A DNA stretch of 64,000 nucleotides from Myxococcus stipitatus (lineage in GTDB: Bacteria > Myxococcota > Myxococcia > Myxococcales > Myxococcaceae): contig NZ_JAKCFI010000003.1 in NCBI RefSeq assembly GCF_021412625.1, forward strand, positions 1-64,000. The letters are read 5' to 3'. The notes under the pieces were generated by a model, which saw only the letters and a list, made by a program, of their open reading frames with translations, searched no databases and was not told the origin of the DNA. Both the position numbers and the translations under genes were made by a program. The stretch's first letter is position 1. Each line of letters starts with the position of its first letter. Below are positions 12,377 through 16,906 of this stretch, piece by piece.

Positions 12377-12519
12377 CCTGGACGGATGCTCCCGGGGCCG
12401 GGATTTCCGGTGACCCCGTGGACCGCCAAACGCTGGGGCGAGGGGGCATGGCGTTTGGTGCGGCGCCCCGGCGCCAGTTACGGCATGGTGCGCGCCACGC
12501 AAGGGAGCGCGAGGACACC

Positions 12520-14577
12520 ATGACGACCAATTCGCAGGACGTGCTGAGCATCAACACCATCCGCACCCTGGCCATGGATGCGGTGCAGCAGGCCCACTCG
12601 GGACACCCCGGGGCGCCCATGTCGCTGGCCCCCGTGGCGTACCAGCTGTGGCAGCAGGAGCTGCGGTACGACCCGACCAACCCCATCTGGCCGGACCGCG
12701 ACCGGTTCATCCTCTCCAACGGCCACGCGTCGATGCTGCTGTACGCGCTCCTGCACCTGGCCGGGGTGAAGCGCGTCACGAAGGACTACCGCGTCGAGGA
12801 CACGCCGGCGGTGTCGCTGGAGGACATCCAGAAGTTCCGCCAGCTCGACTCGTCGACGCCGGGCCACCCGGAGTACCGGTGGACCACGGGCGTGGAGACG
12901 ACGACGGGCCCGCTGGGCCAGGGCGTGGCCAACAGCGTGGGCATGGCCATCGCCAGCCGGTGGCTCGCCGGGCACTTCAACCGGCCGAACTTCGAGATGT
13001 TCAGCCACGACGTGTACGCCATCTGTGGCGACGGTGACCTGATGGAGGGCGTGGCGTCCGAGGCGGCGTCCATCGCCGGACACCTGCAGCTGCCCAACCT
13101 GTGCTGGGTCTACGACAGCAACCACATCTCCATCGACGGCAGCACGGAGCTGGCCTTCACCGAGGACGTGGGCCGGCGCTTCGAGGCCTATGGCTGGCGC
13201 GTGCTGCGCGTGGCCGACGGCAATGACTTGACGGCGCTGAGCGAGGCGCTGCGCACCTTCAAGACGCTGCGGGGCAAGCCGACGCTCATCATCGTCACCA
13301 CGCAGATCGCCTTCGGCGCGCCCAAGCTCCAGGGCTCGTCCAAGGCGCACGGCGAGCCGCTGGGCGAGGAGGAGATCAAGGGCACCAAGCGCAACTACGG
13401 CTGGCCCGAGGACGCGAAGTTCCTGGTGCCCGAGGGCGTGCGCGAGCGGTTCCAGGAGCGCATGGGCGCTCGCGGGCAGGAGCTGCGCCGCGCGTGGGAG
13501 CAGCGCTTCGTCGAGTACAAGAAGGCGCACCCGGAGCTGGCGGAGCAGCTGGAGGCCATGCAGCGCCGCGAGGCGCCGAAGGGCTGGGACGCGGAGCTGC
13601 CCGTGTTCCCGGCGGACGCCAAGGGCCTGGCCACGCGCGAGTCGAGCGGCAAGGTGCTCAACGCGCTGGCGAAGAACTACCCGTGGCTGGTGGGCGGGTC
13701 CGCGGACCTGAACCCGTCGACGAAGACGTACATCAACGGCTCCGAGTCCATGAAGCCCGGTGAGCACGCGGGGCGCAACATCCACTTCGGCGTGCGCGAG
13801 CACGCGATGGGCTCCATCGTCAACGGGCTGTGCCTGAGCAAGGTGCGTGGCTACGGCGCGACGTTCCTCATCTTCAGCGAGTACGAGCGCCCCGCCATCC
13901 GCCTGTCGGCGCTGATGGAGCTGCCGGCCATCCACATCTTCACGCACGACTCCATCGGCCTGGGCGAGGACGGCCCCACGCACCAGCCGGTGGAGCAGTT
14001 GGCGAGCCTGCGCGCGATTCCGGGCCTCATCGTGCTGCGCCCGGCGGACGCGAACGAGGTCACCGAGGCGTGGAAGGTCATCGCGAAGCAGCGGCACCAC
14101 CCGGTGGTGCTGGTGCTCACGCGCCAGGCGGTGCCCACGCTGGACCGCAGCAAGTACGGCGCGGCGTCCGGCGTGGCGCGCGGCGGCTACGTGCTGGCGG
14201 ACGCGGAGGGCGGCAAGCCAGAGCTGGTGCTCATCGGCACGGGCAGCGAGGTGTCGCTGTGCCTGGACGCCCACGAGAAGCTCAAGGCCGAGGGCATCCG
14301 GTCGCGCGTGGTGAGCCTGCCGTCGTGGGAGCTGTTCGAGGAGCAGTCGCAGGAGTACCGCGACAGCGTGCTGCCTCCGGACGTGCACGCCCGCGTCGCG
14401 GTGGAGAAGGCGGCGGCGTTCGGCTGGGAGCGGTTCGTGGGCCTGCGCGGGAGCATCGTCGGCATGCGCAGCTTCGGCGCCTCCGCGCCCATCAAGGCGC
14501 TCCAGCAGAAGTTCGGCTTCACCGTGGACAACGTGGTGAAGGTGGCCAAGGACACGCTGGCGAAGGCGAAGGCGTAG
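12520..14577 (+). CDS. tkt: transketolase
   Basis: A 685-residue enzyme from ATG 12520, which follows GAGG. It transfers two-carbon ketol units in the pentose phosphate pathway using thiamine diphosphate. Visible motifs are SGHPGAPMSLAP, GPLGQGVANSVGMA, the ThDP/Mg motif GDGDLMEG at 170-177, GGSADLNPSTKT and HDSIGLGEDGPTHQPVEQ. Length and motif order are normal for the family. Upstream in-frame codons to 12418 lack any resemblance to transketolase. Its transcript ends in the hairpin at 14610-14647. Confidence 0.96.
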   Translation: MTTNSQDVLSINTIRTLAMDAVQQAHSGHPGAPMSLAPVAYQLWQQELRYDPTNPIWPDRDRFILSNGHASMLLYALLHLAGVKRVTKDYRVEDTPAVSLEDIQKFRQLDSSTPGHPEYRWTTGVETTTGPLGQGVANSVGMAIASRWLAGHFNRPNFEMFSHDVYAICGDGDLMEGVASEAASIAGHLQLPNLCWVYDSNHISIDGSTELAFTEDVGRRFEAYGWRVLRVADGNDLTALSEALRTFKTLRGKPTLIIVTTQIAFGAPKLQGSSKAHGEPLGEEEIKGTKRNYGWPEDAKFLVPEGVRERFQERMGARGQELRRAWEQRFVEYKKAHPELAEQLEAMQRREAPKGWDAELPVFPADAKGLATRESSGKVLNALAKNYPWLVGGSADLNPSTKTYINGSESMKPGEHAGRNIHFGVREHAMGSIVNGLCLSKVRGYGATFLIFSEYERPAIRLSALMELPAIHIFTHDSIGLGEDGPTHQPVEQLASLRAIPGLIVLRPADANEVTEAWKVIAKQRHHPVVLVLTRQAVPTLDRSKYGAASGVARGGYVLADAEGGKPELVLIGTGSEVSLCLDAHEKLKAEGIRSRVVSLPSWELFEEQSQEYRDSVLPPDVHARVAVEKAAAFGWERFVGLRGSIVGMRSFGASAPIKALQQKFGFTVDNVVKVAKDTLAKAKA

Positions 14578-14609
14578 TCGGCTCGCCGCGCCCCGGGCGC
14601 TGAAAAGAC

Positions 14610-14647
14610 AAGGGCCGCGGACCATCCCCCGAGGGTCCGCGGCCCTT
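14610..14647. terminator. bidirectional-looking terminator of tkt; hairpin 1 of the C-loop array
   Basis: A perfect 14-bp stem (AAGGGCCGCGGACC and its complement) closes the loop ATCCCCCGAG and is followed by CGTTTTT, a canonical intrinsic terminator for tkt. Its C5 loop matches the loops of the eight hairpins that follow. Confidence 0.85.
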
Positions 14648-15208
14648 CGTTTTTCCGGTACGCCTCCGGATGCCGGAGCCCACCCCCCGGTGGCTCCGCA
14701 CATCCGGCGTCCTTCCTTTCCGACGGCTCCGACCGGCTCCAGGAAACACCCCCCGGTGATTCCCGGCTCCCCGGCCGTGACCTTCGTCCTGCCACCCTCT
14801 CACCCTGGCGCTGGAACCTCCCCCCGGTGGTTCCTGGCGCCCGGCGTCGGGCTTCTTCTTCGACCTTCACCGCGCGTGCCTGGAGTGTCCCCCGGTCACT
14901 CCCGGCACGCGGCGTCGGGCTTCGATGTCGCCCTCGAACGGGCACCTGGATCCACCCCCCGGTGATTCAGGTGCCCGTCATCAGGGCTTGGATACGTACC
15001 ACCCGAGCCTCTGGATCCCCCCCGGTATCCAGCGCTCCCTCCGTCCCCTCTAAGAAGGGGCCTCACGGAGAGAAAGGGCCTCGGACCCTCCCCCGAAAGT
15101 CCGAGCGCCCTGCTGCTCCCCTTGCAAGAGAGGAGCCCATCCCCGCTTCTCGTCGCGGTGGGGAATCCCCCCGTCGTCACCCGGCCCCCCACCGGGTGTC
15201 CCCACCGC
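14610..15208 (+). repeat. array of nine stem-loops with C-run loops
   Basis: Nine inverted repeats fill the gap between the convergent tkt and the repeat-protein gene: 14610-14647, 14666-14707, 14733-14774, 14807-14841, 14873-14911, 14940-14976, 15005-15037, 15076-15110 and 15155-15208. Each places a run of 5-7 C (often CCCCCCGGTG) in or beside the loop, with C-runs recurring every 57-77 bases. Stem sequences differ completely from one hairpin to the next while pairing is kept (for example GGAACC/GGTTCC, GGAGTG/CACTCC, CTCGGAC/GTCCGAG). That pattern argues for RNA structure rather than copied DNA. No known element was recognised. Confidence 0.8.
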
Positions 15209-15225
15209 GCCGTTGGGACCGCGAA

Positions 15226-16695
15226 TCAGGCCACGATCTGGCGGAGGGCCGGCAGCGCGACCACCAGGTTCATCGTCGTCAGCATCTTCTTGAAGTCGTT
15301 GTTGGCGATGCCCGTCTCGCCCTTCGCCAGGGCGTTGGTGGCGGTGCGCTCGTAGATGCCGAGGACCCGCTTCGCCTCCGGGCTCAGGCGGTCGTAGTTG
15401 TCGCGAGCCCACTTCTGGAGGTCCGCGAACTCGAGGCCCGCGGCCTGGCCGTCCAGGTCACCCGCGCCGTCCGAGATGGCCTTGATGAGGTCGCGGCCGG
15501 AGATGGTGCCGTTCTTGTCGTCCAGCTTCTCCAGCGCGGCGCGCATGGAGTCGTCCCGGAACGTCTTGAACTGGGAGGCCTCCTTCACCATCGAGTCGAA
15601 GTTGGCCTGCGTCAGCCCCCCCGAGCCGGCCTTCTTGGCGTGCTTCTCGTAGGTGGCGAGCACCTGGCGGGCCTCGGGCGTGAGCCGGTCCTTGTTCTTC
15701 TCCGCCCACTTCTTGAAGTCGCGCAGCTCGGAGGTGGAGGAGTGCCCGTCCATGTCGGAGACGCCCTCCTTGATGGCCTCGAGCATGTCCTCGCCGGAGA
15801 TGGGGCCGTGCTCCTTGTCGAGCTTGGAGAGCGCCTTCTGCGCGCTCACGTCACCGATGTTCTTGAACGCGTCGTGCAGGTCGCGCAGCTCGGCCTTCGA
15901 GAAGTCCTTGCTGCCGGACTCGGTCACCTTCTTCGCGTGACGCTCGAAGGTGGAGAGCACCTGCTTCGCCTCGGGCGACAGCTTGCCCTCGTTCTTCCGC
16001 GCCCAGTCCGCCAGGGCCTTGGCCTCCGCGTGCGTCTGGCCATCCGCGTCGCGCACGCCGCGCTCGATGGCGCGCGCCAGATCCTCACCGGAGATGGGGG
16101 CGGCCTTCTTGTCGAGGTTCGCCAGCTCGCGCTCCATGCCCTTGTCGCCCACCGAGCGCATGTCCTCGAGCATCTGGTTCCACTCCCCCGTGGGGATGCC
16201 CGTCTGGCCCTTGGCCTGCGCCTTCGCTGCGGCCTTCGAGTACAGGTCCATCACCTGCTTCGCCTCGGGCGTGAGGCGGTCGCCGTTCTGGCGCGCCCAC
16301 TCCTCGAAGGCGCGGTACTCACCACCCGCCGCCTGGTTGTCCAGGTCCGCCGTGCCGCGCTCGATGGCCTGCGTGAGCTGCTCCGCCGTGATGGGGCCCT
16401 TCGTCTGGTCCAGCTTCGCCGTCTCGCGCAGCGCGCCGGTGTCGAGCGGCTGCCACTCGTTGGGCAGCTTGCGGGCGGGACGCCCCAGCTGACCCTTGTC
16501 GAAGAGGTCACCCAGCTTGTGGTGCGGCACCAGCGGGCGGCCGCAGTTGACCGCCTGGTGCAGCGCGCCCAGCAGCCGCTGCTCGGCCTCGCGCAGGCCG
16601 CGCGCATGGTTGAGCGGCGAGGACACCGTCGAGGTGATGCCGTGGCTCTTGGAGGCGACGTTGGCGTTCAGCTGGGCGTTCAGGCGGGTGGTCAT
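15226..16695 (-). CDS. four-fold repeat protein of unknown function
   Basis: A 489-residue soluble protein without signal peptide, from ATG 16695 preceded by GGAG. After an 85-residue N-terminal region it has four repeats of about 97 residues (near 88-182, 188-283, 288-378, 386-476). Each runs: LDxxxGPIxxxxLxxAIxxG, then D-x-D-G/N, then W-A-x-x-N-x-x-x-L-S/T-P-E-A-K-Q-V. The LDKEHGPISGEDM and DMDGHSSTSEL parts recall degenerate EF-hand loops, so calcium binding is possible but unproven. Expression appears to depend on a sigma-54 promoter at 16741-16756. The 3' end faces the hairpin array. Confidence 0.8.
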   Translation of the reverse strand: MTTRLNAQLNANVASKSHGITSTVSSPLNHARGLREAEQRLLGALHQAVNCGRPLVPHHKLGDLFDKGQLGRPARKLPNEWQPLDTGALRETAKLDQTKGPITAEQLTQAIERGTADLDNQAAGGEYRAFEEWARQNGDRLTPEAKQVMDLYSKAAAKAQAKGQTGIPTGEWNQMLEDMRSVGDKGMERELANLDKKAAPISGEDLARAIERGVRDADGQTHAEAKALADWARKNEGKLSPEAKQVLSTFERHAKKVTESGSKDFSKAELRDLHDAFKNIGDVSAQKALSKLDKEHGPISGEDMLEAIKEGVSDMDGHSSTSELRDFKKWAEKNKDRLTPEARQVLATYEKHAKKAGSGGLTQANFDSMVKEASQFKTFRDDSMRAALEKLDDKNGTISGRDLIKAISDGAGDLDGQAAGLEFADLQKWARDNYDRLSPEAKRVLGIYERTATNALAKGETGIANNDFKKMLTTMNLVVALPALRQIVA

Positions 16696-16740
16696 TTGAG
16701 TTCTCCGTTCTTTCGTTTGGAGCGTGATGACCAGCCCTAT

Positions 16741-16756
16741 TGCGCGCGTCGTGCCA
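16741..16756 (-). promoter_or_regulatory. sigma-54-type promoter of the four-repeat protein gene
   Basis: The minus strand reads TGGCACGACGCGCGCA: a perfect TGGCAC -24 element and a GC -12 element ten bases on. The transcript start would fall near 16729, giving a leader of about 35 bases. Three palindromes upstream fit activator sites. Confidence 0.7.
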
Positions 16757-16835: not shown

Positions 16836-16851
16836 GGTGACAACAGTCACC
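16836..16851. promoter_or_regulatory. palindrome GGTGAC-N4-GTCACC, copy 1
   Basis: A perfect 6-4-6 inverted repeat centred about 114 bp upstream of the predicted sigma-54 start, a typical enhancer-binding-protein position. Confidence 0.6.
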
Positions 16852-16854
16852 ACC

Positions 16855-16870
16855 GGTGACTGCAATCACC
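16855..16870. promoter_or_regulatory. palindrome GGTGAC-N4-ATCACC, copy 2
   Basis: The same element with one mismatch, 19 bp from copy 1. Confidence 0.55.
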
Positions 16871-16890
16871 AGGGATCCGCGCCTGGGGGT

Positions 16891-16906
16891 GGTGACGACA
16901 GTCACC
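16891..16906. promoter_or_regulatory. palindrome GGTGAC-N4-GTCACC, copy 3
   Basis: A third, perfect copy 36 bp from copy 2. It overlaps the last codons of the GNAT gene. Confidence 0.55.

Follow-up and report, generated by a model that had tools for sequence, protein, structure and literature searches.

What is encoded by a row of hairpins between two genes that converge, which strand carries it, and which part of it does selection hold? The question is raised by a locus of Myxococcus stipitatus within the window, i.e. the whole stretch of 64,000 nucleotides analysed here. The intergenic region 14578-15225 is flanked by tkt, on the plus strand, and by the gene for a 489-aa repeat protein, on the minus strand; nine C-run hairpins span 14602-15212 (Table 1). 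A first examination of the letters alone (the sequence-only reading) placed these hairpins in a plus-strand RNA. Comparison with related genomes points to the other strand.

Table 1. Features of the hairpin locus, with positions in the window
Feature	Position	Strand	Remarks
tkt (transketolase)	12418..14577	+	convergent neighbour; anchor for finding the locus in relatives
Predicted 3' UTR hairpin array, ~620 nt, G-run loops	14602..15225	-	folding, G-run counts
H1, terminator-like	14602..14656	-	GGGG loop 14627-14630; U-rich tail on minus side; covariation
H2	14657..14712	-	GGGG loop 14685-14688
H3	14728..14780	-	GGGG loop 14751-14754
H4	14795..14851	-	GGGG loop 14822-14825
H5	14864..14918	-	G-run loop 14891-14893
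H6	14931..14986	-	GGGG loop 14957-14960
H7	14994..15048	-	GGGG loop 15020-15023
H8	15067..15119	-	GGGG loop 15091-15094
H9, branched	15151..15212	-	outer stem 15151-15169/15194-15212; inner hairpin 15178-15198, G-run loop
489-aa repeat protein (predicted helical)	15226..16695	-	ATG 16695, stop TGA 15228-15226; array = predicted 3' UTR
sigma54-like promoter box TGGCACGACGCGCGCAATAGG (GG-N10-GC)	16736..16756	-	inferred start ~16728; core conservation, 35 sequences
Three palindromes GTGAC/T-N4-GTCAC, candidate enhancer (activator) sites	16836..16906	-	upstream of promoter, between GNAT gene and promoter

The hairpin array

The sequence-only reading had reported nine hairpins with 5-7 C in or beside the loop, and this is borne out: all nine runs were located, in or adjoining the loops. 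In the plus-strand reading they start at 14626, 14683, 14749, 14820, 14889, 14955, 15017, 15090 and 15185, and there is an extra C-run at 15167, within the ninth element. The proposed spacing of 57-77 bases holds if the ninth element is counted from 15167; the starts as listed are 57-95 apart. Two more hairpins, without C-run loops, are found inside the array (~15039-15070 and ~15115-15136). The stems had been called unrelated; this is not wholly so, as H1 and H8 are 87% alike over 30 nt, but stem sequence is otherwise free. Against dinucleotide shuffles, folding of the array gives z-scores of -9.4 on the plus strand and -8.0 on the minus strand.

The array is single-copy in the genome. In 864 kb of the same genome, which served as the background for the cluster scan, it is the only cluster of at least four C-run hairpins; the next-largest clusters have three members and are chance-like. 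The C-run sits on the tip of a strict (no-bulge) hairpin in 5 of 10 cases in the array versus 32 of 2566 elsewhere. A genome-wide check of the loop motif had been proposed, with a REP-type repeat as the alternative. The loop word CCCCCCGGTG is not enriched genome-wide (50 occurrences versus 47 for reversed controls). Because the word is unenriched and the array is single-copy, the array is not a REP element; a dispersed repeat is likewise rejected, there being a single locus and no second large cluster in the 864 kb scanned. The earlier view of a conserved structure rather than copied DNA is upheld by a fixed loop on free stems and by the compensatory changes found for H1 in related genomes. 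Rfam gave no family for the array region at the gathering threshold and nothing credible at E 10, and no report of this locus was found in the literature.

The region downstream of tkt is present, with tkt, in all 27 Myxococcus genomes and in Corallococcus, and H1 is kept in both genera. The number of hairpins beyond H1 ranges from none (G008, G009, G013 and G014) to about nine; turnover is fast, and the C-run (plus-strand reading) is kept. Four species have the protein and H1 as the sole hairpin; the rest of the array is dispensable in them. Three C-run words at the spacing of the array were matched nine times in the 27 Myxococcus genomes, six times at tkt. The three other matches are near-identical tandem repeats of another kind, and arrays at other loci are thus rejected. 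At another locus, tandem units of ~60 nt are arranged around GGAATGAACGTTCCTTCC palindromes (G010:C1:2988380 and G022:C93:43310; L178, L175). G020 (L040 / L095) has an extra gene between tkt and the H1-like terminator, which parts the repeat-protein and array side from tkt.

Support for a minus-strand RNA

H1 was compared in an ungapped alignment of 28 distinct sequences, with the same structure scored on both strands. Standard pairs make up 97.8% on the minus strand versus 87.7% on the plus strand. On the minus strand there are 26 cells with two-sided change (5.5 in shuffles), and the covariation score is 0.239 (versus 0.123). The plus strand has 20 such cells; further pair types number 13 on the minus strand and 9 on the plus. 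Two positions are decisive. Pair 22-31 is GC in 11 sequences, GU in 9 and UG in 6 on the minus strand, and unpaired in 17 of 28 on the plus; the second is UG or CG on the minus strand and unpaired in 20 of 28 on the plus. The covariation check in related genomes that had been suggested therefore finds compensatory changes for H1, and finds them better on the minus strand. Between the whole arrays of G000 and G016 there are 5 compensatory changes versus 0-4 in slid controls, which is not clearly above them. Covariation is firm for H1 only.

Wobbles in the stems of the C-run hairpins lean the same way. A.C pairs on the plus strand, which are G.U on the minus, number 76, versus 23 G.U pairs on the plus (56 versus 22 in unique contexts); local composition predicts equal numbers on both strands. 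The bias is significant in this count; an earlier one on fewer positions gave 12:5, which is not (p 0.14). Background C-run hairpins elsewhere in the genome show the same lean more weakly (46 versus 28), and for this reason H1 covariation and the promoter are weighted above the wobbles, which lend support to the minus strand and are not proof of it. The folding z-scores of the whole array show no preference for the minus strand.

H1 is flanked in the window by U-rich tails on both sides (the T-run on the plus side is seen in G000). In the aligned homologues the U-rich tail is on the minus side, and on the plus side in some only. The first hairpin had been taken for the tkt terminator. This may stand for some species; the conserved tail suggests that H1 is the end of a minus-strand transcript.

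The array RNA very probably lies on the minus strand and is structured, given the promoter described below, the terminator U-run, the wobble pattern and the retention of the array after loss of the ORF. An RNA from the plus-strand 3' UTR of tkt, as first proposed, is disfavoured by the wobbles, by H1 covariation and by the minus-strand promoter; the repeat-protein gene, not tkt, would have the array as its 3' UTR. The C-rich loops appear to be the complement of G loops on the transcribed strand. Anti-Shine-Dalgarno action by C-loops, also envisaged in the sequence-only reading, finds no support, because loops of a minus-strand RNA read GGGG rather than CCCC and could not serve in this way.

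A candidate sigma54-type promoter

The minus strand carries a box, TGGCACG-N3-CGNGCAATRGG, ahead of the start codon of the repeat protein. Across 35 sequences from Myxococcus and Corallococcus its core (TGGCACG, CG, GCAA..GG) varies little or not at all, and most of the columns flanking it are 40-77% conserved. Of the 27 Myxococcus genomes, 22 have a single copy of the box and two, G003 and G005, have two copies. The remaining three lack an exact match: the contig ends first in G001 and G015, and G018 has one change. The sigma54 consensus of M. xanthus is TGGCACG-N4-TTGC(T/A), and CTGCT and TCGCT are listed as variants of the -12 element (PMC9765219). All 35 aligned sequences have GG at -24 and GC at -12 with ten bases between them. 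The -24 half is a perfect match to the M. xanthus consensus; the -12 half is GCGCA or GAGCA, not TTGC. The box may be read as an activator-dependent promoter of the sigma54 type.

Three GTGAC/T-N4-GTCAC palindromes are found at 16837-16905; by chance, 0.24 would be expected over the full 64 kb. Of 35 homologous upstream regions, 33 have one or more of these palindromes and 24 have two or more; the exact palindrome was not found in two ORF-less genomes among these sequences. The GTGAC-N4-GTCAC palindromes lie ~80-180 bases upstream of the box, the usual distance for activator sites. Their conservation across Myxococcus and Corallococcus makes them likely candidates for such sites.

The repeat protein and the clade without it

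The repeat protein has D-x-D-G motifs in helix-loop-helix repeats, which are EF-hand-like by eye. Homologues are found in Myxococcus, in Corallococcus and, weakly, in two other genera. Curated Pfam and NCBIfam models gave marginal matches only. The predicted structure is helical, with moderate confidence (pLDDT 73), and a fold search of the PDB with this model returned no significant match.

No homologue of the repeat protein was found in nine Myxococcus genomes, M. vastator among them. In the tree the nine group together (support 100/100) inside the ORF-bearing species, and ORF-bearing Corallococcus falls outside. A single loss of the ORF is the simplest reading, since the nine are monophyletic within ORF-bearing species. 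M. xanthus presumably belongs to the same clade. The locus could be read across in seven of the nine genomes, and in each the box precedes the same leader, with the array immediately behind it. The ribosome-binding site of the leader, CACGGAG, is kept in most of the ORF-less species, with no start codon close behind it; the mechanical ORFs that overlap this stretch on the minus strand are at most 85 aa long. Promoter, array and terminator are all kept. What remains is ~367 nt long and folds with a z-score of -7.2, and a stand-alone non-coding RNA of ~370 nt is predicted for this clade. The protein occurs without the array in four species and the array without the protein in nine. This double dissociation argues that protein and array have separate functions on one transcript.

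G-runs as the conserved unit

Read on the minus strand, the hairpins of the window have a loop of 3-4 G at eight of their nine tips. GGGG is shared by 44 array hairpins, and stem positions hold less than 0.7 bit except next to the loop; these hairpins were chosen on the G-run, so the identity of the loop is partly by construction. Across relatives the base pair that closes the GGGG loop is, with few exceptions, C-G or U-G. Runs of at least five G are strongly biased to one strand when H1 is excluded: 109 on the minus strand versus 1 on the plus in Myxococcus UTRs (6079 nt) and 20 versus 0 in Corallococcus UTRs (824 nt). The genome average for such runs is about one per 600-730 nt. The G-runs of Corallococcus UTRs are mostly unpaired.

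In the ORF-less clade, 49 of 51 G-run columns are invariant versus 224 of 329 other array columns (p 7e-6) and versus 117 of 140 4-fold C sites of tkt (p 0.03); overall divergence of the array is about that of 4-fold sites. Although related species do not count as independent cases, two genera whose scaffolds differ agree in the G-run bias, and this suggests that selection acts on the G-run rather than on the stem. The Corallococcus UTRs downstream of tkt (L193, L195) also contain repeated TTCAAATCCCCCC words (GGGGGGATTTGAA on the minus strand), outside the hairpins. These words resemble half a tRNA T-arm, perhaps by chance.

Possible roles of the array

The strand preference, the conservation of the promoter and upstream sites, the structure, the G-run bias and the loss of the ORF with retention of the UTR are features of the sequences themselves. 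The explanation that we prefer for the whole, at close to an even chance, is a sigma54-type mRNA with a G-run array in its 3' UTR that acts as a docking platform, and that has become a non-coding RNA in one clade. An activator-dependent sigma54-type promoter at ~16756 would start the repeat-protein mRNA; the hairpin array would form its 3' UTR, and the transcript would end at H1, just before tkt. The stems would be scaffolds free to change, and what is selected would be 4-6 consecutive G, exposed on hairpin tips in Myxococcus or mostly in unpaired UTR in Corallococcus. The array could then serve, as a docking platform or a sponge, to bind a G-run-recognising partner at many sites; this partner could be a protein that binds RNA or an RNA rich in C. 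In the ORF-less clade the same promoter, leader, array and terminator would yield the stand-alone RNA. Transcription, the reading of the box by sigma54, the binding of a G-run partner and a regulatory outcome are what we infer. Docking or sponging of a putative G-run-binding partner is, taken by itself, a tentative proposal to which we give appreciably less than an even chance. A sponge with many sites, whether part of a 3' UTR or transcribed on its own, had been raised as a possibility from the letters alone; as a possibility it is supported, for a locus-specific array on the minus strand. The boldest form of the idea is speculative and on balance unlikely: a new family of RNA in which GGGG-capped hairpins titrate a G-run-binding regulator under enhancer-dependent control. 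The untranslated array would be the selected product, and one clade would have dropped the protein and kept the RNA with its promoter and terminator, so that a former mRNA became non-coding.

The hairpins might instead be a passive 3' UTR or barrier, protecting the mRNA from exonucleases and blocking antisense run into tkt, with G-runs that are incidental or stabilising. Convergent genes, very stable hairpins, a terminator-like H1 and an array length that is free to vary between species would all suit this role. It does not predict the G-run bias of 109:1 and 20:0, however, which includes the mostly unpaired runs of Corallococcus, nor an array whose conserved loops outlast the ORF, and we consider it rather unlikely. 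Pairing between RNAs would make use of the G-runs as the conserved element: the loops could catch C-rich RNAs, such as a 6C/B11-like sRNA, or, in the manner of a Shine-Dalgarno sequence, the CCUCC tail of 16S rRNA, and so form a sponge for sRNA or ribosomes. For mycobacterial B11, base pairing of the C-rich loops with a six-G tract in a target has been proposed (PMC10470900). Such pairing is improbable here, as only four G are exposed and closed by a pair, which is short for specific pairing, and Rfam found no C-rich sRNA family within this window.

The two remaining alternatives do without a minus-strand RNA. A plus-strand RNA downstream of tkt could act as an anti-Shine-Dalgarno sponge through its C-loops or provide C-rich loading sites for Rho; the plus-side T-run of H1 in G000 would fit, and in Corallococcus, whose H1 is without that T-run, Rho could make use of the C-rich stretches. 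Wobbles and covariation favour the minus strand, however, and the conserved promoter and candidate activator sites lie on it, which leaves a plus-strand RNA very improbable. Least credible is an element acting as DNA, by cruciforms, recombination or protein-binding sites. Inverted repeats with turnover, which fold well on both strands, would be expected of it; strand-asymmetric wobbles, the arrangement of promoter and terminator and locus specificity across the genus would not.

To our knowledge, few regulatory RNAs have been described in myxobacteria; Pxr, which gates multicellular development, is the one we found in the literature. A conserved array of one loop motif behind a regulated-looking sigma54-type promoter would suggest an RNA-binding factor that has yet to be described. 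The ORF-less clade would also be a natural experiment, with the same RNA in the presence and absence of the protein: can an mRNA become a non-coding RNA by way of its 3' UTR?

Comparison with known RNA systems

The alpha-r14 or cuckoo (CcsR) sRNAs resemble the array in that one loop motif recurs on successive hairpins whose stems differ in sequence (PMC10746234). The array likewise repeats an identical loop on different stems. The cuckoo motif is CCUCCUCCC, an anti-Shine-Dalgarno sequence in unpaired regions, whereas the loops here are GGGG on the minus strand and CCCC on the plus and do not contain it. The cuckoo RNAs also belong to another phylum and another gene neighbourhood, and the array has no Rfam match.

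The sponge sRNAs RsmZ and CsrB, which sequester an RNA-binding protein multivalently (PMC4005645), also consist of several hairpins with one G-containing loop motif. Their motif is ANGGAX, bound by CsrA/RsmE, whereas the loops of the array are GGGG without A. A search of G000, the genome of the window, with PF02599 did not detect CsrA, although control genomes gave matches; a CsrA sponge is rejected on this result. The 6C/B11 RNA of actinobacteria shares the feature of homopolymer runs in hairpin loops. It differs in having C-rich loops, two hairpins and a place in the Actinobacteria, and the 6C covariance model of Rfam gave no match at the gathering threshold or at E up to 10. Small RNAs derived from 3' UTRs are comparable as RNAs that share a 3' end with an mRNA. 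Here, by contrast, the coding part is gone altogether from one clade, and transcription of the UTR would begin at the promoter of the mRNA itself.
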